A stretch of DNA of 64,000 nucleotides. Source: an uncultured Granulosicoccaceae bacterium (GTDB lineage Bacteria > Pseudomonadota > Gammaproteobacteria > Granulosicoccales > Granulosicoccaceae). The stretch spans positions 248,001-312,000 of the forward strand of contig CALAJN010000010.1 in assembly GCA_937922675.1 (NCBI GenBank), written 5' to 3'. This document shows, in pieces, positions 47,495 through 60,116 of the stretch. Numbering within the stretch: the stretch's first letter is position 1; each line of letters starts with the position of its first letter. The position numbers were made by a program, and so were the translations under genes. Under the pieces are notes generated by a model. It worked only from the letters and a program-made list of their open reading frames with translations, made no database searches and was not told the DNA's origin.

Positions 47495-48433
47495 ATGAAC
47501 CGCCTCTCAGTTACCCCCGTACTTGCCCCGGCCCTTGCTCTCGCGGGCATCCTTCCCGCCCAGGCAGCAACATTTGGCCCACTGGTCACCCCCCAGGAGC
47601 TGAAAGTCGCTCTGGACTCCACCGACGCGATTATTCTCGACGTGCGTGGTGATGCCTACGCAAACGGCCACATTGAAGGTGCCGTCTCCGCCCCTTACGG
47701 TCTTTTTCGTGGCCCGGCTGAAAACCCCGGCCAGCTGGTTGAGGTCGCAGTCCTCGAAGAACGCTACGAGTCACTGGGACTTGAATTGGAAAAACCCATA
47801 GTCATCGTACCGGAAGGCAAGACAGACACCGATTTTGGCGCTGCTGCACGTGTCTACTGGACCTTGAAATCTTCTGGCTTCGAGGACCTGTCGATTCTCA
47901 ATGGCGGCATCCTGGCATGGGAAGCAGCAGGCTACACCATTGAAGATCAACCGACCGTTTTGGACACGACCGAGCTGGACATCGAATTCTCCTACCAGTG
48001 GACTGCCGATTCCAACGATGTGTTGGCTGTCACCCGCGGCGAAGTCGATGCGCTGTTGCTGGACTCACGCACGCCGGAGTTCTACGAGGGCAAGAAGAGT
48101 CACCCTGCGGCTGCAAAACCGGGTACCTTGCCCGGTGCCGATAACCTGAGCTACACAGGCTTTTTCGATCAGGGGTCTCCGGTTCTGCAAAATGAAATTG
48201 AATCAAGCTCCTTGCTCGATCAGCTCGGCGTCAACGATGGAGAAGATATTGTTGCCTTCTGCAACACCGGCCACTGGGCGGCAACCAACTGGTTCGCGCT
48301 ATCCGAGGTAGCCGGTGTGGAGAACGTCAAGCTCTATCCCGGGTCACTGGTCGAATACACCAATGCGGGCCACGATGTTGTAAACGCGCCCGGACTGATT
48401 GGCAATTTCGTCAACAAGGTCACAGGTGGCTAA
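47495..48433 (+). CDS. Periplasmic two-domain rhodanese (thiosulfate sulfurtransferase)
   Basis: 312 residues. Sec signal ends near PAQAA (residue 25). Two rhodanese domains: the first (about 40-160) with DVRGDAYANGHIEGAVSAPY but no catalytic Cys, the second (about 165-300) with LLDSRTPEFYEGKKSHPAA and active-site Cys256 in FCNTGHWAA. It moves sulfane sulfur from thiosulfate to an acceptor. The YeeE gene lies 106 bp downstream on the same strand, so the pair probably handles thiosulfate together, one in the periplasm and one in the membrane. Confidence 0.88.
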   Translation: MNRLSVTPVLAPALALAGILPAQAATFGPLVTPQELKVALDSTDAIILDVRGDAYANGHIEGAVSAPYGLFRGPAENPGQLVEVAVLEERYESLGLELEKPIVIVPEGKTDTDFGAAARVYWTLKSSGFEDLSILNGGILAWEAAGYTIEDQPTVLDTTELDIEFSYQWTADSNDVLAVTRGEVDALLLDSRTPEFYEGKKSHPAAAKPGTLPGADNLSYTGFFDQGSPVLQNEIESSSLLDQLGVNDGEDIVAFCNTGHWAATNWFALSEVAGVENVKLYPGSLVEYTNAGHDVVNAPGLIGNFVNKVTGG

Positions 48434-48539
48434 CTAAGGCAGTTGCAGCTCTTGGCTCAATCTGTCGGTTGGCCAAGAGCTCCTGATTGCATCGCGTTAT
48501 CATCTGCCTGAAGGTCATGACGCGAGAGAACGGTAGTTG

Positions 48540-49667
48540 ATGACGGCAGGAGCACTGACTACTCAAATGGGTCTTGCATGGCCTCGCCGGACAGCGCTTG
48601 TGCTGGCAGCAACGGCTGCGGTGCTCGCAGTCATGATCCTGGTGGGTGTGCGCTACGGACTGCTATTGGCGGTCGGACTTGGGTTCGGCCTCGTGCTCGA
48701 GGGTCTTCGCTTTGGCTTTGCCGGACCATGGAGAGCCATGATCCTCAGACGCGAGCCTTCGGGCATGTTCGCCCACCTGTTAGCTATCGGTCTGGTAGCC
48801 ATAGTGGCCTTGCCACTGATTGCTGCACGTAACGGCGAGCTGACCGGAGCACTGGCCCCGGTAGGTTGGGCAATGGTAGGTGGTGCTTTCGTATTCGGGA
48901 TCGCGATGCAGGTGGTCCTGGGCTGCGGCTCGGGAACCCTGATCAATGCAGGCTCCGGCAACCCGATATCACTGCTGGCACTCCCTTTTTTTGCGATTGG
49001 CAGCTTTGGTGGTGCGTATCACCTGTTCTGGTGGACTGATCTTGGCTCGCTCCCAGCCATCGGCGTGTCGAGTTGGAGTGGCGTAGCCATCACCCTCATA
49101 GCTCTCGTACTGATCGCAATCATCCTTTTTCGTATGGGGGCGCCCGGACAACGCCGATTTCTCGGTCGCCACATCCTTGCTGCCTGCCTTGTTGCGGCGC
49201 TGGCTCTGGCAAACCTTGCTGTCGCAGGGCAACCCTGGGGCGTCGTGTATGGCTTGGGCCTATGGGCTGCCAAAGGCGCTACGACACTGGGCATGGACCT
49301 CTCAGGCTCTGCATTCTGGTCAGCTGGCGAGAGTACTGCACGAGTCAACGAAAGCGTCTTGCTGGACGTGACCTCTCTGACGAACATCGGCATCATGCTT
49401 GGCGCCTTTCTGGTGGCCTCCTGGCGCCGTGGCGGATTATCCGATCGCATCCCCAGATTGCCATTCAAAGCCTGGATAGCGACGATAGTGGCTGGCCTGC
49501 TGCTGGGCTATTCATCGCGACTGGCCTTTGGGTGCAATGTTGGTGCGTTCTTTTCAGGCATCTCCACTGGCAGCCTGCACGGTTGGGTGTGGTTTGCGGC
49601 AGCCTTTGCAGGTTCGATAGTCGGCGTTCGAATCCGTCCACATCTAGGCCTGGAGCCGCGTCGATGA
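48540..49667 (+). CDS. YeeE/YedE (TsuA-like) thiosulfate/sulfur transporter
   Basis: 375 residues, about ten helices. It has the two Cys-containing signatures of the sulfur-transport (DUF395) family: LGCGSGTLINAGSGN and FGCNVGAFFSGISTGSLHGW. In the characterised TsuA proteins such cysteines relay thiosulfate through the membrane. An ATG at 48540 follows a TTG in the same frame. The stop overlaps a 54-codon gene (ATGA). The rhodanese gene upstream supports a sulfur role. No TusA gene is present nearby. Confidence 0.88.
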   Translation: MTAGALTTQMGLAWPRRTALVLAATAAVLAVMILVGVRYGLLLAVGLGFGLVLEGLRFGFAGPWRAMILRREPSGMFAHLLAIGLVAIVALPLIAARNGELTGALAPVGWAMVGGAFVFGIAMQVVLGCGSGTLINAGSGNPISLLALPFFAIGSFGGAYHLFWWTDLGSLPAIGVSSWSGVAITLIALVLIAIILFRMGAPGQRRFLGRHILAACLVAALALANLAVAGQPWGVVYGLGLWAAKGATTLGMDLSGSAFWSAGESTARVNESVLLDVTSLTNIGIMLGAFLVASWRRGGLSDRIPRLPFKAWIATIVAGLLLGYSSRLAFGCNVGAFFSGISTGSLHGWVWFAAAFAGSIVGVRIRPHLGLEPRR

Positions 49668-49917: not shown

Positions 49918-50379
49918 ATGGCCCAGCAACAAACGCCGGCAGGCGCGACAAAAACCCACTCGTCCATCACTCTCTACCACTCGCCAGGCGCGTGTTCGAT
50001 GGCGGCTGGTATATCGCTCTTTGAGGCAGGGTTGGACTTTGAGGTAAAGATCGTCAACTTGAAAAACAACGAGCAAACCCTCCCTGACTTTGCCGCACTC
50101 AATCCAAAGAAAAAGGTCCCGTTTCTGGTTGTCGATAGCGCGGGACTCAGCGAGAACGTAGCCATCCAATCCTGGATAGCTGAGTCCTGGCCAGACACGC
50201 AACTCTTACCATCAGATCCTTGGAACAAGCACCGCGCCTTGTCTTACATGGGTTGGTTTGGCTCAGGTATACATCCCCACATCACACGTCACTTCAAGCC
50301 CACAACGAACGGATGCACGCACGCGAGAGCGTCAAAAAGACGATCGCTCTACGCTGAGATCAAAGCGCTCCACAGATAG
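49918..50379 (+). pseudogene. Glutathione S-transferase, truncated and frameshifted
   Basis: ATG with a GGAG box. Residues 17-120 are a normal GST start: TLYHSPGACSMAAGISLFEA, LNPKKKVPFLVVD, SENVAIQSWIAE, and FGSGIHPHITRHFKP at the beginning of the C-domain. Beyond that the frame reads THARASKRRS, while the +1 frame over the same bases gives MHARESVKKTIAL, the expected continuation; it then returns to LYAEIKAL and stops. About 80 C-terminal residues are missing, where the convergent creatininase gene begins. Two small indels and a 3' loss indicate a dead gene, unless the truncated form folds. Confidence 0.65.
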
Positions 50380-50383
50380 CGAG

Positions 50384-51166
50384 CTAAAGTGTCGCGGGGG
50401 CTGTAGGTACAGGCATGTCAACCACTTTATGCAACAATTCAATAAAGCCGCCAATCTGATGCTCGGTTGTCTGAACGCCCTTGCTCGCGGTTGCCAGTGA
50501 GGCATCACCCACGGTGCCTTCGGTATTGAGATCTGCAGCAATCCATCCACGGCTTATCGATCCAATAGGAGGAACCAGATCGGCCTCTGCACTTGATCTG
50601 AAGTTGGCAGCCTGGCTCATGTCGACGGTGTCGGGCCGAAAGTTGAGCATCATCGAGGTCTCTACATCACCACCGTGAATCCCGAATTGGCGCTCATTCT
50701 CTGTGTACAAACCCTCAGGGTAACCGAAGCTGCCCCACTGGCATTTCACGGCCAGCATTCCTGCCTGCACTCGTAGCTCACGACTCAGTATCGAGTTGAG
50801 ATCCAGATTGCCACCATGGCTGTTGACAATCACAATTTTCTTGAAGCCCGCTCGGGCTACTGACAATCCGATCTCGGTCCAGGCCGACAAGGCAGTTGCC
50901 GCGCACAAGGTCAGTGTGCCAGGCGCCCACAGATGTTCGTTGGATTTACCCACTGACTGTATCGGCAGTATCCAGGGATCCAGCGACTCCGGACAGACTG
51001 ACTTGAACGCATCGAGCATGCCTCGCATGATCATCGTATCGGTACCGCAGGGCAGGTGCGGACCGTGCTGCTCGACGGCAGCGGTCGGAAGAATGGCAAT
51101 CGCCGTGTTCGGGTCGATACCCTTGAAGTCCGGCGCGCGCCGATCAGCCCAGTCCAGACGTCTCAT
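50384..51166 (-). CDS. Creatininase family amidohydrolase
   Basis: 260 residues from the ATG at 51164-51166. Metal-dependent amidohydrolase fold: PTAAVEQHGPHLPCGTDTM (Glu, His, Asp ligands), VNSHGGNLDL and GIHGGDVETSMML. The family includes creatininase, formamidopyrimidine deformylases and others that open cyclic or formyl amides. It is the last gene of the minus-strand operon 57307-50384, with the NMT1-type importer and CodA-like deaminase, suggesting it opens the ring made by the deaminase or hydrolyses a related amide. Confidence 0.87.
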   Translation of the reverse strand: MRRLDWADRRAPDFKGIDPNTAIAILPTAAVEQHGPHLPCGTDTMIMRGMLDAFKSVCPESLDPWILPIQSVGKSNEHLWAPGTLTLCAATALSAWTEIGLSVARAGFKKIVIVNSHGGNLDLNSILSRELRVQAGMLAVKCQWGSFGYPEGLYTENERQFGIHGGDVETSMMLNFRPDTVDMSQAANFRSSAEADLVPPIGSISRGWIAADLNTEGTVGDASLATASKGVQTTEHQIGGFIELLHKVVDMPVPTAPATL

Positions 51167-51202
51167 ACAGTTTGCTCTGATGTACGGTGCAAGGCTCAAC
51201 TG

Positions 51203-51781
51203 CTACAGCTTGAGCATCTCAGCTTTAACTCGAGCCAAGTGCGCCTTGAGTTGATCCGGGCCATTGTTATTCATATCGTACAAGGCTACATAACGCGTGG
51301 GTGGCATGCCGCAGGCATAGCGCGTTGCTCGCGTGAAATTCTTGCGCGGAGGATCCCCAGTCATCATCGCTCGCCAGCGTGTCCCGCCGTATGTCGTACA
51401 GGCGGCCAGCCTTTTGATGTTGGTCATTCCTGGGGCAACACCGCCACCTTGCAGCTTGAAGCTGACATCCGGCAAGAATACGCGATCCATAAAACCCTTC
51501 AGTATCGCTGGCGGACCGAAGTTCCAGACCGGAAAAACCATCACCATAGCCTCAGCAGCACGCAGGCGATCAACATAGTCACGCACAGGCTCAATGTTCT
51601 CGGGTATGTCGTGATAGCCCTGTCTCTCAGCGTCGGTCAATACAGGCTGAAAACCTTCCGCATTGAGATCACAGTCATCGACTTCCCAGCCTCTATCCAG
51701 AAGCGTTGTGGTGACCACCTCATGCACCGCAGCATTGAAGCTGTCAGCACACGGATGGGCGTAGAGCACCAAGGTACGCAT
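51203..51781 (-). CDS. NAD(P)H dehydrogenase (quinone)-like flavodoxin-fold protein
   Basis: 192 residues. Flavodoxin-like fold of the KefF/NQO1 family: MRTLVLYAHPCADSFNAAVH, VMVFPVWNFGPPAILKGFMDRVF, and ACTTYGGTRWRAMM. It binds FMN or FAD and reduces quinones or other acceptors with NAD(P)H. It lies 1 bp after the FAD oxidase gene and 36 bp before creatininase, so it is part of the same operon; it may recycle flavin or detoxify a quinone-like product. Confidence 0.85.
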   Translation of the reverse strand: MRTLVLYAHPCADSFNAAVHEVVTTTLLDRGWEVDDCDLNAEGFQPVLTDAERQGYHDIPENIEPVRDYVDRLRAAEAMVMVFPVWNFGPPAILKGFMDRVFLPDVSFKLQGGGVAPGMTNIKRLAACTTYGGTRWRAMMTGDPPRKNFTRATRYACGMPPTRYVALYDMNNNGPDQLKAHLARVKAEMLKL

Positions 51782-51782
51782 A

Positions 51783-53201
51783 TCAGGCGTTCTCTGGAAC
51801 GGGGGTCATCTCGGGATAGCTATACATGGAGGAGTAATCCCAGTCCGGATCATCCCAGGCGATCATCTTGCCGGGGTTCAGCAAACCCTTCGGATCCGCT
51901 TCCTTCTTGAACAATAGTTGCCGTGGATCGCTATGCTGTCGCCCACCCTCTTCAAGCGTGTAGCGATGCGGATTGAACACCAAGGCGCCAGCATCCTCGT
52001 GCGCCTTGACGATTTCATCGAGCCGCTCCTCTGTCGTGAACTTGACAAGCGTCAAACCAGCGAAGCCGACCTTGCCTCCCTCCATTCGAATAGCCTCCAA
52101 GTGCTGAATGAGCTCATCGGGAAAGGCCGCGCGCATCTGGTTCACCAGACGGAAGTGATCCGGATAGCCATAACGCACCTGCAAGTAGGTGATGCTCGGA
52201 TCCACTCGAATTGCACGAAGCGTGGTGTGATTCCAGCCATACTCGAAGACATGGCCAGGCAAGGGATCCCAATTGTGGTCATCTGAACGATAGATCAGCT
52301 TCAGATCCGGGTTTCTGTTCAGCCACGTCAACAGGCCATCGACACTGTGTGGCGCCACCATCAAACCAACCAGATGGTCGTCATCTTCAACATGCGCCTG
52401 AACACGTGGAAAGTACGCCTTGGCTGTAGGCGCTTCGTAAACTGACGCGATCTTCAGCAGTATGCCGTTCTCCTCAGCCAGCTCTGCTGCACAGGCCATG
52501 GCACGATCAAAATCCTTGCTACTGACAAAACAATCCACCCAGTCATAGGCAGGTGCGAGGGGTAGTTCGAGCTCAGTGATGATGCCGTTGGTACCGTAGG
52601 CATGGCTGACACGCGCAAGGTCCTCACCCGAAAACTCCAACACTCTGGGCTCTGCCTCCATGGTGACTACGCGCAAGCGAATGATGTTGCCGAGTTCGCG
52701 CAAGGAACCCCAAGTCACCGACCCGACGCCACCGGAACCTCCAGCGATAAAGCCTCCTACCGTTGCCGTTGCCCAGGTTGACGAAAACATACGCAACTCG
52801 TGTCCGCAGGCGTCAATGCAGTACGCATCAACGTGCTTCAACAGGCAGCCTGGCTGGACCACTACTCGCCCTGGCTCGCAGAACGTGACCTTGTTCATTC
52901 TGCGCAACGCCATAACGCAACCACCGCGCATGGGCATGGCTTGACCGTAGTTACCGGTGCCCGCACCGCGTGTTGTTACTGGAACATCGTGCTCATAACA
53001 GACCCTGAGCACTTCAATCACTTCGGCCTCGGAATGTGGTTTGACCACAAAGTCCGCAACAAGATGATCCATACGCGCCTTCAGTACCGGCGAATACCAA
53101 AAGAAATCTCTGGAGGCCTTCACAATCGAGGCCTCTTTGTGCTCCATCTCCAGATGAGACAAGGCTTCTTTGGCAGCGGCAACGTTAGCAGGCAGTGTCA
53201 T
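51783..53201 (-). CDS. FAD-linked oxidase (GlcD/D-lactate dehydrogenase-like)
   Basis: 472 residues. FAD-binding type 4 (VAO/PCMH) flavoenzyme: VTTRGAGTGNYGQAM, TVGGFIAGGSGGVGS and the C-terminal LLNPGKMIAWD. It oxidises a hydroxy acid or a similar substrate. It overlaps the amidohydrolase stop by 4 bp. In this operon it may oxidise the compound released after ring opening. It lacks a signal peptide and the iron-sulfur partner GlcF. Confidence 0.85.
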   Translation of the reverse strand: MTLPANVAAAKEALSHLEMEHKEASIVKASRDFFWYSPVLKARMDHLVADFVVKPHSEAEVIEVLRVCYEHDVPVTTRGAGTGNYGQAMPMRGGCVMALRRMNKVTFCEPGRVVVQPGCLLKHVDAYCIDACGHELRMFSSTWATATVGGFIAGGSGGVGSVTWGSLRELGNIIRLRVVTMEAEPRVLEFSGEDLARVSHAYGTNGIITELELPLAPAYDWVDCFVSSKDFDRAMACAAELAEENGILLKIASVYEAPTAKAYFPRVQAHVEDDDHLVGLMVAPHSVDGLLTWLNRNPDLKLIYRSDDHNWDPLPGHVFEYGWNHTTLRAIRVDPSITYLQVRYGYPDHFRLVNQMRAAFPDELIQHLEAIRMEGGKVGFAGLTLVKFTTEERLDEIVKAHEDAGALVFNPHRYTLEEGGRQHSDPRQLLFKKEADPKGLLNPGKMIAWDDPDWDYSSMYSYPEMTPVPENA

Positions 53202-54466
53202 GGACTGTGTTCGAATAGATGATCGAGTTCAGCGTAGTCGGGCAGAGTACGGTCAATGACCTTGCCGTCTCGGATAACAACGCGATTGGATTGAGGGCGC
53301 GCGAGCAACTCGGGCCAGTTGCGCGCTGAGAAAAGAACAAGGTCAGCACACGCCCCCTCCTCGAGCCCCGCAGAGGAAAAACCACACACCTGCGCTGCTA
53401 CATCAGAGAACGCACTCGACCAATCAGCCACTGAATGATCCAGATGTGCGATACGCGTGGCCTCACGTATTACCTCGACCATATCCAGATCCCCGTAGGC
53501 GTAGAAGGGGTCCCGAGTATTGTCGGACGCAAAGCTGACCTTGATGCCGCGAGCCTTCATCTCATGCACCAGCGTCACACCACGACTACGCGGCGTGCGA
53601 GCCGCCACTCTATCCTGCAAGTACATATTGCACATCGGCAGACTGACAACATTCAACCCCGCCTTGGCAACCAGATCGATCGTATCCAGAGCGCGCGAGG
53701 TCTCCTGCATTGACAACGAACAGCAATGACCCACGAGCACCGGCTGATCAAAACCTGTCTCAAGCACGCACTCGGCAATCAGACGCAGTGTTTCACTGCT
53801 CGGGTCCATGGTCTCGTCGGTGTGGAAGTCGATAGCCAGTCCACGCGCCCCAGCGGCCTCCAGATGACCTAGCAACAACCGCTTGATATCGGGCACCGGG
53901 TAGGAAACCATCCCCAGCACACCTTTATGCTGTGCAACCAGATCTGCAACACGCTGGTAGCCAGAATCATCGTAATAGTCACAAGGCACCAGGCTTGCCA
54001 TTTGAAGCTCTACCCGACCCGCCCAGCAGCTACGCAGGTCAGCCAATGCAGACCAGCTCTGCTCGACCTGATCATGTATCGAGTCCACGTGTGTGCGGAT
54101 AGCACGCGTTCCATGTGCAAAGGCACCACGGATGGAGAAGTCCGCTCGCGCACGCACATCCTCGGTTGTCCAGTTGGCGTGATCAGCACGTACCGTGTTG
54201 AGAGCAGCGTCAAAGGTGCCATTCGGATTGGCTGCCCTCGGCAGAATATGGCCCTTGTCGAGGTGCGTATGGCTGTCTACAAAAGCAGGCAGCACCATGG
54301 CCCCTGCCATATCGACATACTCGCCTTGAGGTTGCGCAAGCTTCCCATCAGCAATGCCGAGATCTACGCGCACAAGATCAGAGCTATGTGACTCGGCCTG
54401 CGTCCAGGCCGGGACCGTGACGTTACCCAAGGTAAAAGGCGCCTGCGGTAACGTGATGAAATCCAC
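53198..54466 (-). CDS. Cytosine deaminase-like amidohydrolase
   Basis: 422 residues, GTG start overlapping the permease stop by 1 bp. CodA-type metal hydrolase: SHTHLDKG, IDFHTDET, LVGHCCSLS and FASDNTRDPFYAYGDLDM match the zinc/iron site and proton relay of cytosine deaminase and its relatives (creatinine deaminase, triazine and pterin deaminases). The transporter genes in the same operon argue for an imported N-heterocycle. Exact substrate open. Confidence 0.87.
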   Translation of the reverse strand: MDFITLPQAPFTLGNVTVPAWTQAESHSSDLVRVDLGIADGKLAQPQGEYVDMAGAMVLPAFVDSHTHLDKGHILPRAANPNGTFDAALNTVRADHANWTTEDVRARADFSIRGAFAHGTRAIRTHVDSIHDQVEQSWSALADLRSCWAGRVELQMASLVPCDYYDDSGYQRVADLVAQHKGVLGMVSYPVPDIKRLLLGHLEAAGARGLAIDFHTDETMDPSSETLRLIAECVLETGFDQPVLVGHCCSLSMQETSRALDTIDLVAKAGLNVVSLPMCNMYLQDRVAARTPRSRGVTLVHEMKARGIKVSFASDNTRDPFYAYGDLDMVEVIREATRIAHLDHSVADWSSAFSDVAAQVCGFSSAGLEEGACADLVLFSARNWPELLARPQSNRVVIRDGKVIDRTLPDYAELDHLFEHSP

Positions 54467-55443
54467 TAAGACTCTCTCTTCAAGGCACTTTCATGCCACC
54501 GAAAGAGCAACAAGTAACTGATAAGACTCATCAACCCGAATATGGCAACTCCCATCAGCGAGATCAGGATAAGCGCTGCATAAAGCCGCCCGAAGTTGAA
54601 TCGATACGAGGCCTCGAGCAGAGTGGAGGCAAGCCCGAGGCCAGTGCCCGCTCTGCCGATCACAAACTCAGCTACTACCGCACCAATCAGGGCCAATCCG
54701 CCGGCGATCTTCAATCCCCCAAGGAAAAAGGGCAAGGCACTTGGGCCTGTCAAAAGACGCAAGGTTTGCCACCGAGAAGCACCATATATTCTGAACAGGT
54801 CCCGCAGGTTATGGTCAGCAGATTTCAGTCCTATGGTCGTGTTGGCCAGGATAGGAAAAAACGCGACCAGCCACGCGCACAACAAGGCAGCAACAAAGGC
54901 ACTGTCGACATAAATCTGCAGAAGTGGCGCAATAGCCACAACGGGGGTGACTTGCAGGATAACAGCGTAGGGAAACATCGCCAGCTCCGCCCACTTGGAC
55001 TGAGTAAAGGCAACGGCAAGTAGTAGCCCTCCTATTATTGCAAACAGCAAAGCCAGGAAAGTCAGGCGTGCCGTTGCCAACAATGCGGGCCACAGGATGC
55101 CCCAGTCTTGCACCAGGGTCTGAGCAATGCGCACGGGTGACGGCAAAATGTAGTGAGGCACTTCAGCCAGCGTGACATACGCCTGCCAACTACCGACAAG
55201 TATCACAAGCAACAAAGAAGGCAGTGCCCAACGTGCAATGGACACAATCCTTGCCTGACGAGCACGGCGTTCTTCCTCAACATCAAGTCCGTTGGTCTTT
55301 TCGGCATCCTGACTGCTGATTTGGTCGTACATTTGGCCGCCGATGTGCCCGGGCACAGGGTCTGCCAAGGGGTCAACCGGTTGATCAATCCGGGATTGAG
55401 TCAACTGCCCAGAACCCTGCTCGGGAGTGATCGGCGAGCTCAA
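54466..55443 (-). CDS. NMT1/Tau-type ABC transporter permease
   Basis: 325 residues, TTG start in a TTGA overlap with the ATPase gene. SsuC/TauC/ThiX-type permease with six helices and the EAA-like loop DLFRIYGASRWQTLRLLTGPSA. About 65 polar N-terminal residues precede the first helix, longer than usual; the true start may be inside. Works with the adjacent ATPase and binding protein. Confidence 0.87.
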   Translation of the reverse strand: MSSPITPEQGSGQLTQSRIDQPVDPLADPVPGHIGGQMYDQISSQDAEKTNGLDVEEERRARQARIVSIARWALPSLLLVILVGSWQAYVTLAEVPHYILPSPVRIAQTLVQDWGILWPALLATARLTFLALLFAIIGGLLLAVAFTQSKWAELAMFPYAVILQVTPVVAIAPLLQIYVDSAFVAALLCAWLVAFFPILANTTIGLKSADHNLRDLFRIYGASRWQTLRLLTGPSALPFFLGGLKIAGGLALIGAVVAEFVIGRAGTGLGLASTLLEASYRFNFGRLYAALILISLMGVAIFGLMSLISYLLLFRWHESALKRES

Positions 55444-56228
55444 GCGGCATGCTCCATAGCGCGCACGAGCATTGCCGATGCCTCACTGGCCGAGGCCGCG
55501 TACTCAGCCGACGTTCGAAAGGCATCTGATCGCGGATAAGGAGCATCAACAGTCAATTCACCGACCACTCTGCCCGGGCTGGCAGCCATGACGACAATAC
55601 GATCGGACAAAAAAACGGATTCAAACACAGAGTGCGTAACAAAAATCACGGTGCACCCTATCGACTCACGCAGGGACAACAGATCGTTGTTCAGCTTGTG
55701 GCGCGTTATTTCGTCAAGGGCTGCGAAGGGCTCATCCATCAGTATCAGGCGAGGCCGAGTAACCAGTGCGCGAGCAATGGAGACGCGCATCTTCATACCA
55801 CCAGAAAGTTCGCGCGGAAAAGCATCCTTGAAATCCTGAAGCCCAACAAGAGACAAGGCCCGCTCGATTTTGTCTGCAACGCTTGAGTAGCTCTGGCCAC
55901 GTAAGCGAAACGGTAACCAGACGTTGTCCTTGACCCGAGCCCAAGGCATCAGGGTAGGCTCCTGAAAGACAACACCCAGGTCACCCTCGCCCTGCCCCCC
56001 CTGCCACTCGATAGAACCCGCGGTGGGCTGTATCAGGTTGGCGATCAGCCGAAGCGCTGTTGACTTGCCGCAGCCTGACGGGCCCAGCAAGGAAATGAAA
56101 TCCCCCTGCTGGACGCTCAGGCTCAGATCATTCAAGGCAACCACTTGACCACCAAAGGTCTTGCCGATACGTGACATGCGCAGCAACTCAGGCCGCTGAC
56201 CCAGCGGCTCGCGCGCGGAGGAAGTCAT
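55440..56228 (-). CDS. NMT1/Tau-type ABC transporter ATP-binding protein
   Basis: 262 residues. Walker A GPSGCGKST, Q-loop VVFQEPTLMPWARV, signature LSGGMKMRVSIARAL, Walker B LILMDEPFAALDE, H-loop FVTHSVFESVFL. This is the SsuB/TauB/ThiZ type for nitrate, sulfonate, pyrimidine precursors and similar small anions or heterocycles. The gene overlaps the permease and follows the binding protein after 77 bp. Confidence 0.9.
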   Translation of the reverse strand: MTSSAREPLGQRPELLRMSRIGKTFGGQVVALNDLSLSVQQGDFISLLGPSGCGKSTALRLIANLIQPTAGSIEWQGGQGEGDLGVVFQEPTLMPWARVKDNVWLPFRLRGQSYSSVADKIERALSLVGLQDFKDAFPRELSGGMKMRVSIARALVTRPRLILMDEPFAALDEITRHKLNNDLLSLRESIGCTVIFVTHSVFESVFLSDRIVVMAASPGRVVGELTVDAPYPRSDAFRTSAEYAASASEASAMLVRAMEHAA

Positions 56229-56305
56229 GAGAGTTTCATTCAGCCCGTACCCGACTCAAGCCCGGTAAGTCCCACGCCGGCAGGAGCTGGCAAATTCGTT
56301 AAGAG

Positions 56306-57307
56306 TTACTGCACCAGATTCTTGCCCAATCCTTTGCCAACAAACTCGGTGGTGTACGCCGTGGTGTAGTCAAGACCTGCCTCTACGACTCCGGCCTCCA
56401 CCATCTTGGTGTAAAAGTCCTCAACCTTGGCATCGGTGATAACACCAACTCCCAATTCCTCAGCATCGCCAGAGACCACAATGCCGTTCTCTATCATTTT
56501 CTCGATGGCGTAATCGATCTTGTCGTTGCTCATCTCGGGATTGTCAGCAATGATGAGCTCACGAGCTGCCACATTCTCACCGTACAGAAAGTTATACCAA
56601 CCAAGAATGGAGCCATTTACAAAACACTCCACTTCTTCAGGCTTGTCGGCGATCGTGTCGGCCATGGTTTCTATTGTGGTGGCGTAGGTCGAGTAACCTG
56701 CGTCAGCAATCAAGAAGACATCCGGTGTAAAGCCACCTTCCTTCTCAACCAGATAGGGCTCAGACGACAAGTATCCCTGCATGGCGACATCGGTGTTTGC
56801 CAAAAACGGCGCCGGGTTGAAGGTGTAAGGCTTGCGCTGTTCTTCAGTGAAGCCATAGGCACCGATCATCCACTGATAGAAGGACTGATGACCATTGTCA
56901 CCGATGAGTAGCTCAAGGTCCTTGAGATCCTCGAAACTTGACGCTTTTCCGGGATGTGCGAGGATAACTTGAGGGTGTTTCTGGAACGCGGCTGCCACGG
57001 CTACCACAGGCACACCCTCCTTTGCTGCATTGAAGGCCTGCAGCAGATCTCCACCCATGTGGTAATCAACACGACCGGCCAGCATCAAGGCACGATTGTT
57101 TACCTGGGGGCCGCCCGGCACGATCGTGACATTGAGGCCACACTCTTCGTAGGTGCCATCAGCAACGGCTTGGTAGAAGCCACCGTGCTCCGCTTGCGCC
57201 AGCCAGTTGGTGCCAAAAGACACATCGGATGCGGCCTGAGCCGTGCCGAGGGCAACCAATGAAATCGCGCCAAGCGCGGCGATGAAGATACGTTGTGAGA
57301 AGTTCAT
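56306..57307 (-). CDS. NMT1/THI5-like ABC transporter substrate-binding protein
   Basis: 333 residues from the ATG at 57305-57307; the frame is open for 65 more codons upstream but they show no signal peptide. Sec signal ends near GTAQA (about residue 25). The mature part begins VSFGTNWLAQAEHGGFYQA, as in hydroxymethylpyrimidine or pyrimidine-type NMT1 proteins, and has IGDNGHQSFYQWM. First gene of the seven-gene operon. The related RutC/pyrimidine and hydantoin systems are plausible models; the ligand is unknown. Confidence 0.87.
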   Translation of the reverse strand: MNFSQRIFIAALGAISLVALGTAQAASDVSFGTNWLAQAEHGGFYQAVADGTYEECGLNVTIVPGGPQVNNRALMLAGRVDYHMGGDLLQAFNAAKEGVPVVAVAAAFQKHPQVILAHPGKASSFEDLKDLELLIGDNGHQSFYQWMIGAYGFTEEQRKPYTFNPAPFLANTDVAMQGYLSSEPYLVEKEGGFTPDVFLIADAGYSTYATTIETMADTIADKPEEVECFVNGSILGWYNFLYGENVAARELIIADNPEMSNDKIDYAIEKMIENGIVVSGDAEELGVGVITDAKVEDFYTKMVEAGVVEAGLDYTTAYTTEFVGKGLGKNLVQ

Positions 57308-57588
57308 GACTGCGTTTGCGACCTGTTTATCCGAAGTAAATGCGAGCCTTGAATCAGCGCCCCGTGAGCTGCTCAAGCAACCTGCAACTGCCACGAACTT
57401 ATCGGCATCGCCGACGCTTGTAAAGCGTCGGCAGCGTAGTGTCATTGTTATACCGTAAAAGCCTGCCTTTGGTGCGCGACGCACTACGACAGTGCCAGGC
57501 ATTTACAAACCACACTCGAGCCAAAGTGGGCGCTGGCTCCGGGTAACATCCGAAGCCGACTCTATACCTGTATCTAGTGACAATCAGC

Positions 57589-57978
57589 ATGATCACAAGT
57601 CTGACTCCACCCCAGCTACCACCACCTCTTGCACGTTACGCGCATGGCGTGTGTGACAAAACCTCAGGGCTGGTACTCACATCCGGCCAACTGGCCATAG
57701 CTCGCAACGGCAGTACGCCTGAAGGTGCCGAAGCTCAGGCTCAACTTATCTTCAGCAATATCGAGCACATTCTCGAACAGGGGGGGAGCAACAAATGCGG
57801 CGTCTTGCGCATCAACGCTTATGTAACCAGCCGCGATCACATGACGGGCTACATGTCGGCAAGAGATCAATGGCTCGAGGGGCTGGATCACTTACCCGCA
57901 TCAACTCTCGTGATCGTCTCAGGTTTCACGCAAGCGGAGTTTCTCGTCGAGATAGAAGTGACAGCGCGATGTACCTAG
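57589..57978 (+). CDS. RidA family deaminase
   Basis: 129 residues from the ATG at 57589. Small trimer-forming protein that hydrolyses reactive enamine/imine intermediates released by PLP enzymes. LVLTSGQLAIARNG, AEAQAQLIFSNIEHIL, RINAYVTSRDHMTGY and LVEIEVTARC follow the family; the catalytic Arg (usually in CvxRvxxyl) is present in VLRINAYV. It is divergent from the binding-protein gene and ends 5 bp from the convergent ureohydrolase. Confidence 0.8.
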   Translation: MITSLTPPQLPPPLARYAHGVCDKTSGLVLTSGQLAIARNGSTPEGAEAQAQLIFSNIEHILEQGGSNKCGVLRINAYVTSRDHMTGYMSARDQWLEGLDHLPASTLVIVSGFTQAEFLVEIEVTARCT

Positions 57979-57983
57979 CGTGC

Positions 57984-58952
57984 TTATACGCACCTACCCA
58001 CCATCACGCATAACAACTCAAACATGATTGATGCGCCAAGCCATGCAGTACCACCTGCGGTATCCAACGGCGGCGATACTTCTACAAGATCTGCTCCAAT
58101 GATGTTTACACCCTCGAGCCCTCGCACTACCTGTAACGCTTGAAACGAGTTAGGTCCACCGACTTCTGGTGTACCCGTGCCAGGAGCAAATGTGGGATCT
58201 ACAAAGTCGATGTCGTAGGACACATACGTTGACCGGTCACCGACAATGTCACGTGCCTCGCTCAACACATCGTCAACGCCTCGAGCAAAAAACTCTTCGA
58301 TCGGAATGACTCGTATACCCACAGCCTTGGCAAAATCTCTGTCTTCACCATCGTAAGCGGTACCACGAATGCCAATCTGTACGACGCGTTTCGGATCCAA
58401 CAGCTCCTCTTCAACGGCACGACGAAAAGGCGTACCGTGCGTATATCGGGCACCACCAAAATAGCTGTCGAACAGATCTGTGTGACTGTCGAAGTGAATC
58501 ATCCCAACAGGAGAGAGCGCACCCAGCACCCGCAGGATCGGCAAGGAACACAAGTGATCCCCGCCTGCGGTCAGGGGTTTGATATCAGCATCTTTCACTC
58601 TTTTATAAAACGCCTGCATGCGCTGCAGACTGTCCTGCAGGTCCGCAGGATTGGGTGCGACATCACCAAGATCTGCACAGTTGGCGGCCTCGAAGGGCCT
58701 GACACCACTGACTCCATGTTGCGCCCGAATCATCGTCGAGAGATCACGTAGCTGCCTTGGCCCGTGACGCGGCCCTGGACGATTGGTGGTGCCACCATCC
58801 CAAGGCGCCCCGATGAGCCCGATATCGACCTCGGCGATGCACGCATCATCGAGCGGAACATGAGGCAAGCGCATGAAGGTTGGCACGCCGGCAAAGCGCG
58901 GCAACTCCAAACCTGAAACTGGCAGAAAGCTCACGTCATCCCACCTTGGCAA
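57984..58952 (-). CDS. Ureohydrolase (agmatinase/guanidinobutyrase type)
   Basis: 322 residues. Manganese enzyme that releases urea from a guanidino compound. Metal motifs are intact: TAGGDH, HFDSHTD, and SYDIDFVDP, with GAPWDGGTTNRPG. The pattern is of the agmatinase/guanidinobutyrase/proclavaminate amidinohydrolase group. The start appears to be a TTG at 58950-58952, only 9 bp after the DmdA-like stop; no better start keeps the N-terminus. The guanidino substrate may be linked to the neighbouring creatininase operon. Confidence 0.87.
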   Translation of the reverse strand: MPRWDDVSFLPVSGLELPRFAGVPTFMRLPHVPLDDACIAEVDIGLIGAPWDGGTTNRPGPRHGPRQLRDLSTMIRAQHGVSGVRPFEAANCADLGDVAPNPADLQDSLQRMQAFYKRVKDADIKPLTAGGDHLCSLPILRVLGALSPVGMIHFDSHTDLFDSYFGGARYTHGTPFRRAVEEELLDPKRVVQIGIRGTAYDGEDRDFAKAVGIRVIPIEEFFARGVDDVLSEARDIVGDRSTYVSYDIDFVDPTFAPGTGTPEVGGPNSFQALQVVRGLEGVNIIGADLVEVSPPLDTAGGTAWLGASIMFELLCVMVGRCV

Positions 58953-58961
58953 GGCGTCTGA

Positions 58962-60116
58962 TTACAAATTGCTGACGCGATCCTGCAACCCCATCTGATC
59001 CAGCTTGAAGGGCAACTCACTGAACACGGCCTCGTAAAATTCGTTATTGCACAGTAGTTGCAAGGTGACAGACTTGCTTTTCAATTGCTCGATGAGCTCT
59101 GATTCAAAGTACACAAACCCCATCCATGCGTCATACCGGCCGGACAGTGACTGCGAGGTGATATCGCCCACAGGTTCCCCATCTGCCAATAGCTGACAGT
59201 ACCTGGAAGCGACCGGCACACGGGGTGCAATAACGCCCACTAGCCGGGTTGGAACCCCGTGCTCGCGCTGCAGGCGTAATGCAGCATGGCTCATGCTTGG
59301 CAGATCCACATCCAACTGACAGTACTTGTCAAGACCACACTGCAGAGGCGTATGGCTGTAGTCCATGTCACTACCGAAGGACAACAAACCACTCTCCATT
59401 CGCTCGATGTTATTCGGACACCCGTGCCCGACATTGAGGTCTGCGCCGACGACAAACAGCTCATCCCATAAGGTCTGGCCCAACTCAGCATCATCGATAT
59501 AGATTTCAAATCCACCCTGACCCGACCATCCCGACCTTGCGACGATGAAGGGATGACCTCTGTAACTCAATCGTTTGTATCGAAAGAAACGTATCGACTT
59601 GACTTCATCGCCAAATACTCTTGCCATCAGCGTTTCTGCCTTGGGCCCTTGCACGGCAACAGGCCACACATCCGGCCGTGCTATTTCCACGTCCAGACCT
59701 CGACCGTGAGCCAGACCGGCTGCCCACAAGTAGATGTCCGAGTCGGACAGGCTTAGCCACCAGGTGTCATCGCTCACCTTGATCGCTATCGGGTCATTGA
59801 GAATCCGCCCCTGCTCATCACACAAAGGAACGTAGAAGCACTGATCGTGCTGAGCCTTTGACAAGTCGCGAGGCGTCATCAATTGCACCAGGCTTTCAGC
59901 ATCAGAGCCTTTGAGTTGCACCTGCCGCTCGCACGACACATCCCACACCTGAACATGTTCCAAAAGATGCCAGTAGTCCCCCTCCAGCGATCGGAACCAA
60001 CTGGGCAACAAGGTATGGTTATAAACCGTGAACGACTGCGCACCACCAGCGAGAATCCGATCGGTAAAGGGGGTCTCCCGCAAGCGCCGGGAGAAGGTGA
60101 TAAGCGGATGCGTCAT
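58962..60116 (-). CDS. DmdA-like aminomethyltransferase-fold demethylase
   Basis: 384 residues. GcvT-fold tetrahydrofolate enzyme. Closest in pattern to dimethylsulfoniopropionate demethylase DmdA: TVYNHTLLPSWF, LLEHVQVWDVSCERQV, DLSKAQHDQCFYVP, GPKAETLMARVFGDE, FFRYKRL, ARSGWSGQGGFEIY and CPNNIERMESGLLS. The C-terminal third is more divergent. It may demethylate DMSP or another methylated compound, passing the methyl group to THF. No dmdB/C/D genes are near; it forms a pair with the ureohydrolase, so another substrate is possible. Confidence 0.8.
   Translation of the reverse strand: MTHPLITFSRRLRETPFTDRILAGGAQSFTVYNHTLLPSWFRSLEGDYWHLLEHVQVWDVSCERQVQLKGSDAESLVQLMTPRDLSKAQHDQCFYVPLCDEQGRILNDPIAIKVSDDTWWLSLSDSDIYLWAAGLAHGRGLDVEIARPDVWPVAVQGPKAETLMARVFGDEVKSIRFFRYKRLSYRGHPFIVARSGWSGQGGFEIYIDDAELGQTLWDELFVVGADLNVGHGCPNNIERMESGLLSFGSDMDYSHTPLQCGLDKYCQLDVDLPSMSHAALRLQREHGVPTRLVGVIAPRVPVASRYCQLLADGEPVGDITSQSLSGRYDAWMGFVYFESELIEQLKSKSVTLQLLCNNEFYEAVFSELPFKLDQMGLQDRVSNL

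Follow-up and report, generated by a model that had tools for sequence, protein, structure and literature searches.

A conserved gene cluster of an uncultured Granulosicoccaceae bacterium that may import and dismantle pterins

The breakdown of folate and pterins by bacteria was described biochemically decades ago. The present text is about an operon that may carry out a breakdown of this kind, seven genes at positions 50384-57307 of a stretch of 64,000 nucleotides (here called the window) from an uncultured Granulosicoccaceae bacterium (GenBank assembly GCA_937922675.1, contig CALAJN010000010.1, positions 248,001 to 312,000). Two described pterin deaminases (EC 3.5.4.11), that of Variovorax sp. 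F1 and Arad3529, presumably belong to the same amidohydrolase superfamily as one of the operon's proteins, and Fan et al. reportedly assigned Arad3529 as a pterin deaminase in 2013. A further name matters for the comparison. The 'endoribonuclease' (L-PSP) of Variovorax paradoxus is taken here to be RidA under its old name, which the Pfam model for RidA still bears.

A 2022 study cloned a pterin deaminase as well as a carboxypeptidase that removes glutamate, left the later steps open for its strain and called the origin of lumazine-6-carboxylate there elusive (PMC9513972). In the same study, the pterin deaminase of Variovorax sp. F1 has 399 residues, is 37% identical to Arad3529 of Agrobacterium radiobacter K84 and is assayed on folic and pteroic acid; in V. 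paradoxus, a conserved 'endoribonuclease' gene is placed downstream of a predicted pterin deaminase (PMC9513972). The article contains neither 'creatinin' nor 'ABC transporter', and 'flavin' occurs solely in the title of a reference (PMC9513972).

The reading favoured here, with moderate confidence, is that the operon imports a pterin (folate, or an oxidised pterin such as pterin-6-carboxylate) and takes its pteridine ring apart as a source of nitrogen and carbon. The substrate is assigned by homology, and we infer the order of the steps and the reaction of each enzyme. First, an importer of the ATP-binding cassette (ABC) type resembling ThiY would take up the pteridine. Next, an amidohydrolase resembling cytosine deaminase would strip the 2-amino group, turning pterin into lumazine. 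An enzyme with flavin adenine dinucleotide (FAD) would then oxidise the pteridine, with electrons from NAD(P)H delivered by a flavodoxin-fold reductase, and a creatininase-family enzyme would hydrolyse a cyclic amide of the oxidised ring. Finally, RidA would hydrolyse the enamine or imine that is released. The features of the locus are as follows.

56306..57307, minus strand: periplasmic substrate-binding protein (SBP) of the NMT1/ThiY type; PF09084, 65.2 bits against a cut-off of 20.5
55440..56228, minus strand: ATPase of the ABC importer; PF00005 (ABC_tran), 114.7 bits
54466..55443, minus strand: permease of the ABC importer; PF00528 (BPD_transp_1), 80.7 bits
53198..54466, minus strand: cytosine-deaminase-like amidohydrolase of 422 residues, candidate pterin deaminase; Amidohydro_3, 97.9 bits, and PRK07583, 568.8 bits
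51783..53201, minus strand: FAD enzyme, relative of 6V42 by homology; FAD_binding_4, 89.7 bits
51203..51781, minus strand: NAD(P)H oxidoreductase of the flavodoxin fold, presumed to supply electrons; PF02525 (Flavodoxin_2), 104.2 bits
50384..51199, minus strand: creatininase-family hydrolase, presumed to open the ring at a cyclic amide; PF02633 (Creatininase), 210.5 bits
57577..57978, plus strand: RidA-family enamine/imine deaminase, divergent; PF01042, 69.7 bits
57308..57576, no strand: intergenic region of 269 bp between the RidA and SBP genes, presumed control region by inspection of the sequence

Pterins are proposed as the substrate class because the FAD enzyme is related, at 54% identity over about 450 residues, to a structure labelled with folate catabolism. 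A phmmer search gave one strong solved relative, chain A of 6V42 (E 2.6e-158, residues 6-458 aligned), deposited in the PDB under the title 'Crystal structure of the flavin oxygenase with cofactor bound involved in folate catabolism'. The same entry is the top Foldseek match of the AlphaFold model of the FAD enzyme, with a template modelling (TM) score of 0.89. In VIA, the model matches 6V42 with a Z score of 42.6 over 441 residues, and the next entry scores 28.5. Glycolate oxidation of the GlcD type was considered and rejected, the enzyme reaching 73.7 bits on TIGR00387 against a cut-off of 567.9.

The genes around the closest relatives of 6V42 can also be compared. When 6V42 was used as the query against 297 genomes of one family, 102 had matches at E<=1e-150, the best of them with 89% identity. 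The grouping of its sequences with sequences from Rhizobium plasmids suggests that this family is Rhizobiaceae. Four of its regions (L170-L173) have FAD enzymes that are 84-89% identical to 6V42, and all four carry the importer, the amidohydrolase, the FAD enzyme, two flavodoxin-fold reductases, RidA and the creatininase, with RidA and creatininase divergent from the remaining genes. Since these close relatives carry the cluster, the 6V42 enzyme itself very probably comes from an operon of this type.

Conservation of the seven-gene set was a check proposed in an earlier note on this DNA. Species-level genomes were scanned with the FAD enzyme family. Of the relatives found, which number at least 565, the 80 best loci were retained. 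Most of their records bear the name of Rhodobacteraceae, of Roseobacteraceae or of a genus of these families; a few have other labels, Rhizobiaceae, Hyphomicrobiales and Sphingomonadales among them. A locus was eligible if the FAD gene had a left flank of at least 5.3 kb and a right flank of at least 4.5 kb. This removed 21 of the 80 and left 59, which are biased to close relatives, since only the top 80 among the 565 or more had been kept.

The genes for the SBP, ATPase, permease and amidohydrolase each lie at most 9 kb from the FAD gene in every one of the 59 loci. The reductase orthologue is near it in 55, the creatininase in 52 and RidA in 47. The seven genes occur together in 48 of the 59, so their clustering is not chance, and they do not separate freely, which by the terms of the earlier note would have refuted its reading. 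Because RidA is near the FAD gene in those 47 loci, the divergent RidA gene, which that note had left out of its set, is counted as part of the unit; all eight genes occur together in 37. At the identity thresholds used, the 11 loci that miss one of the seven genes lack the creatininase (7) or the reductase (4), and the latter four still hold a related reductase, so that a reductase of some kind is found in 59 of 59. The earlier note had seen in this operon the import and opening of a nitrogen heterocycle, likely with deamination, oxidation and amide cleavage, and this general idea is supported, the genes staying together.

Matches to the second Paroceanicella reductase (at least 48% identity) were obtained in 59 of the 59 loci, and matches to the 2-oxoglutarate (2OG)-Fe(II) oxygenase of Paroceanicella (at least 38% identity) in 33; neither group of matches was inspected individually, and the family of the Paroceanicella oxygenase protein was checked by Pfam. 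The nearest relatives of the window (L135-L138) have one reductase each, like the window itself. In L135, an oxygenase-like open reading frame (ORF) lies only beside the cluster, on the opposite strand.

Beyond these loci, 29 wider regions were chosen from matches of the FAD enzyme at the levels of class, family or genus, and phylum. They contain the amidohydrolase in 26 cases, the SBP in 24, the ATPase in 24, the permease in 23, the creatininase in 23 and RidA in 21. In the ten regions L170-L179, the amidohydrolase, creatininase and reductase are found in all ten, the SBP in nine and RidA in seven. Likewise, 14 plasmid regions hold the creatininase and RidA in 14 each and the amidohydrolase and SBP in 13 each. 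Some of the missing genes are explained by contig ends, as in L138.

Remoter clusters were seen in Rhizobium, Agrobacterium, Pantoea, Klebsiella and Ruegeria and on a Comamonadaceae plasmid; most of the set is retained in them, though the gene order differs. There are exceptions. The amidohydrolase was not seen in the cluster of Agrobacterium tumefaciens F2 (L099), and in that of Ruegeria TM1040 (L092) the NMT1 importer and the reductase are replaced by a binding protein of the peptide type and a dioxygenase of the TauD type. Such a peptide-type binding protein is present in addition to the NMT1 protein in L174 and L175. A shared regulator was considered and rejected, since the Rhizobium clusters have LysR, the Comamonadaceae plasmid has TetR, and LysR had matches in 0 of the 59 eligible loci.

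Another explanation is that a diverged member of the 6V42 family acts on some other amino- or oxo-heterocycle, such as a modified purine, a cytokinin-like purine or another pteridine-like compound. The wider family, at about 34-45% identity, does occur in rearranged clusters, some of them with other importers and oxygenases, and substrates may therefore differ between its branches. The branches of the window and of 6V42, in contrast, have the core cluster and 54% identity in common, and this explanation is considered unlikely here.

The reductase is the part of the cluster that changes its type. It is of the flavodoxin fold in most clusters, of the VanB type with a 2Fe-2S domain in Pantoea, and again of the VanB type in Klebsiella. 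Mameliella has a flavodoxin-fold enzyme as well as a small 2Fe-2S protein and a protein of the ferredoxin-reductase type towards the two ends of the cluster. Because these types exchange between clusters, the reductase is presumed to serve as an electron donor.

The candidate pterin deaminase is the amidohydrolase. Its score lies above the cut-off of 403 bits for NCBIfam PRK07583, whose name 'cytosine deaminase' is a label, and under that of the CodA-type model PRK09230 (121.7 against 483 bits). Residues H66, H68, Q155, H215, E218, H247 and D315 are kept in 133 of 133 homologous stretches, which are at least 40% identical and come in part from overlapping loci. We take these residues, by their role, to be the catalytic set of CodA, the positions coming from an alignment, in which the window protein has Asn in place of Asp314 of CodA. 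A separate alignment covered eight amidohydrolases, of which one came from the plasmid pADP-1 and the others from seven different clusters. All eight agree at the HxH, H, E, H and D-N positions, which comprise the metal residues, the acid-base residues and the D-N pair, and Q155 varies.

In the Pantoea cluster the amidohydrolase gene is followed by RidA, the order described for V. paradoxus. The module seen in the window is also found on the plasmid from Comamonadaceae, the family of Variovorax. As for pADP-1, the atrazine plasmid of Pseudomonas sp. ADP, its amidohydrolase (L182, 7941-9272, equal to 92490-93821 of the record) is 45% identical to that of the Pantoea cluster and lies beside a BMP-type importer, near atzD.

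The creatininase-family protein keeps E43, H45, D54, NSHGGN, H175, G177 and E180-S182 in 92 of 92 stretches, G176 in 91 and D178 in 85. It scores 66.5 bits on the NCBIfam creatininase model TIGR04448 (EC 3.5.2.10), for which the cut-off is 235. Degradation of creatinine or N-methylhydantoin would combine a CodA-like creatinine deiminase with a ring opening of the creatininase type, and both enzyme families are present in the operon. The scores on the creatininase model and on PRK09230, however, are both under their cut-offs, and we know of no creatinine route that needs a FAD enzyme of the vanillyl-alcohol oxidase (VAO) type or a flavodoxin-fold reductase. This explanation was rejected on the family cut-offs and is regarded as very improbable. 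The earlier note had named creatinine, methylhydantoin and an oxidised pyrimidine as candidates; these are not supported, in view of the creatininase score, of a binding protein whose nearest folds bind thiamin or aminopyrimidines, and of the folate label on the relative of the FAD enzyme.

The binding protein was compared through its AlphaFold model (predicted local distance difference test, pLDDT, 93.9). Its nearest folds are the thiamin-bound 4nmy (Z 28.4) and 3ix1, the ThiY protein that binds the formylaminopyrimidine FAMP (Z 26.9), then Thi5 (24.8), with lower scores for SsuA (21.2), PqqT (21.1) and CmpA (about 21). A profile search of solved structures returned the same top two, 4nmy and 3ix1. 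Such a fold is compatible with a six-membered amino-heterocycle and favours neither a pterin nor the pyrimidine of thiamin.

In another alternative, the operon degrades an aminopyrimidine of the thiamin type, for instance hydroxymethylpyrimidine (HMP) or FAMP. The ThiY-like importer, a 4-aminopyrimidine deaminase, a FAD alcohol or amine oxidase and a deformylase of the creatininase family would then act on the pyrimidine half of thiamin. The fold scores of 4nmy and 3ix1, above those of SsuA and PqqT, speak for this view, as does ArfB, a formylaminopyrimidine deformylase of the creatininase family, to which the window protein has a weak match (19.6 bits). Against it, the label on 6V42, to which the FAD enzyme is closer than to any other solved structure, names folate and not thiamin, the SBP is only 16% identical to the thiamin and FAMP binders, and Rfam gave no thiamin pyrophosphate (TPP) riboswitch in the window at gathering thresholds. 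No thiamin genes were found by Pfam and NCBIfam among the ten genes of 50384-60116. A link to a TPP riboswitch was rejected, as the window had 0 Rfam matches and, of five sources searched, only L013 had matches, both to tmRNA models. An aminopyrimidine substrate is judged improbable.

Several observations weigh against pterin breakdown as the role of the operon. The folate label of 6V42 is the title given by its depositors, and a literature search by entry codes found no paper on 6V42. At 54% identity, the substrate of the window's FAD enzyme could differ from that of 6V42, and the AlphaFold model of the enzyme has a mean pLDDT of 76.8 with weak stretches. The SBP resembles binders of thiamin and FAMP and no known pterin binder. 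A reductase was found in just 22 of the 29 wider regions and 12 of the 14 plasmid regions, and in 7 of the 59 eligible relatives no creatininase was found near the FAD gene, so the creatininase step may be optional or supplied from elsewhere.

Intact folate is a further point. A peptidase of the M20 family (carboxypeptidase G) was looked for in 10 ORFs from six of the ten regions L170-L179, a weak test, and none was found. The source genome has six M20 proteins, five of which match other NCBIfam families and one none; this too is a weak test, and it gave no carboxypeptidase G. For this reason, the substrate may be something other than intact folate.

The operon was probably acquired horizontally, because a tree of FAD enzymes places the Granulosicoccaceae copies inside Rhodobacteraceae. 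At E<=1e-60 the enzyme is present in 2 of 369 genomes of the class, the source genome included, and it occurs in 5 of 48 genomes of the family and 4 of 27 of the genus. A sample of the phylum has it in 32 of 398 genomes at the same threshold, distant homologues included. The tree is a maximum-likelihood one of 132 rows made by a quick method, with long-branch warnings mainly on distant rows. In it, the five Granulosicoccaceae sequences form one group (support 96) nested within Rhodobacteraceae next to Mameliella, Pseudooceanicola algae and Allosediminivita, the ten-row set having support 99. A recent transfer visible in base composition was rejected, since the guanine-cytosine content of the operon (55.5%) does not differ from that of the window (56.1%).

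The layout of the locus was also checked. The earlier note had given the seven genes with their families and coordinates correctly: they are seven minus-strand ORFs, and the domains of all operon genes were called by Pfam above curated cut-offs. Its statement that they are linked by overlaps of 1-4 bp applies to the ATPase and permease (4 bp), permease and amidohydrolase (1 bp) and amidohydrolase and FAD genes (4 bp). The remaining three junctions are gaps, of 77 bp between SBP and ATPase, 1 bp between FAD enzyme and reductase and 3 bp between reductase and creatininase, and no further gene lies between the last three. The longest ORF of the SBP begins at 57502; the start given in the earlier note, 57307, is an ATG inside this ORF, and a stretch resembling a signal peptide comes after it. 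A sigma-70-like site was looked for in 57308..57576 and none was found; Rfam likewise had no match there at gathering thresholds.

Some neighbouring genes were seen outside the operon. A rhodanese-like protein and, after it, a membrane protein resembling YeeE/YedE (47495-49667, plus strand) may be a pair for sulfur import, and a truncated-looking ORF resembling glutathione transferase (49918-50379, plus strand) stops 4 bp from the operon end; both were judged by eye. On the other side, an agmatinase-like ureohydrolase (57984-58952, minus strand) is slightly under the agmatinase cut-offs (167.8 against 174.3 and 255.5 against 302 bits), and 9 bp upstream of its gene is that of the dimethylsulfoniopropionate (DMSP) demethylase DmdA (58962-60116, minus strand; PRK12486, 444.7 bits against 410), which to our knowledge is unusual in gammaproteobacteria. 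DmdA and the ureohydrolase were rejected as pathway members: in L009-L088 the ureohydrolase had 0 matches, and DmdA-like proteins were seen in two loci at 24-34% identity.

A broader proposal, put forward tentatively, is that the operon encodes a complete route of pterin uptake and ring opening and supplies the unnamed steps after deamination. It would be a widespread means of nitrogen scavenging in marine Rhodobacteraceae and plant-associated rhizobia, passed horizontally to gammaproteobacteria, and its natural substrate would be not intact folate but the free oxidised pterins that algae, plants and bacteria release. The flavin enzyme is common, with matches in 102 of the 297 genomes of the Rhizobium-grouping family and 32 of 398 across the phylum. 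For the steps left open by the 2022 study, the operon provides candidates, namely an importer, an oxygenase, a reductase and a hydrolase to open the ring. If pterins are indeed the substrate, the names 'cytosine deaminase' and 'creatininase' are wrong for the genes of such clusters.

Compared with known systems, this is probably not a new kind of system. The earlier remark that the set matches no known pathway was a fair one, as literature searches gave no paper on the whole set. Its parts have counterparts of different closeness. The solved folds nearest to the SBP, ThiY (3ix1) and the thiamin-binding 4nmy, differ from it by their 16% identity. Creatininase, MftE, ArfB and IolN (PF02633) have the Pfam family and the metal-site motifs in common with the window protein, which is under the cut-offs of all four NCBIfam equivalogs that it matched. 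The Variovorax pterin deaminase has 399 residues (PMC9513972), compared with 422 in the window amidohydrolase, which scores as PRK07583. The V. paradoxus locus is alike in having a RidA-type gene directly downstream of the predicted pterin deaminase. Finally, 6V42 and 6V43 resemble the window enzyme in their 54% identity, in their fold (Z 42.6) and in the gene set around the 84-89% relatives of 6V42, whereas the clusters of those relatives (L170-L173) differ in having two flavodoxin-fold reductases instead of one and in carrying the creatininase with RidA on the divergent side.

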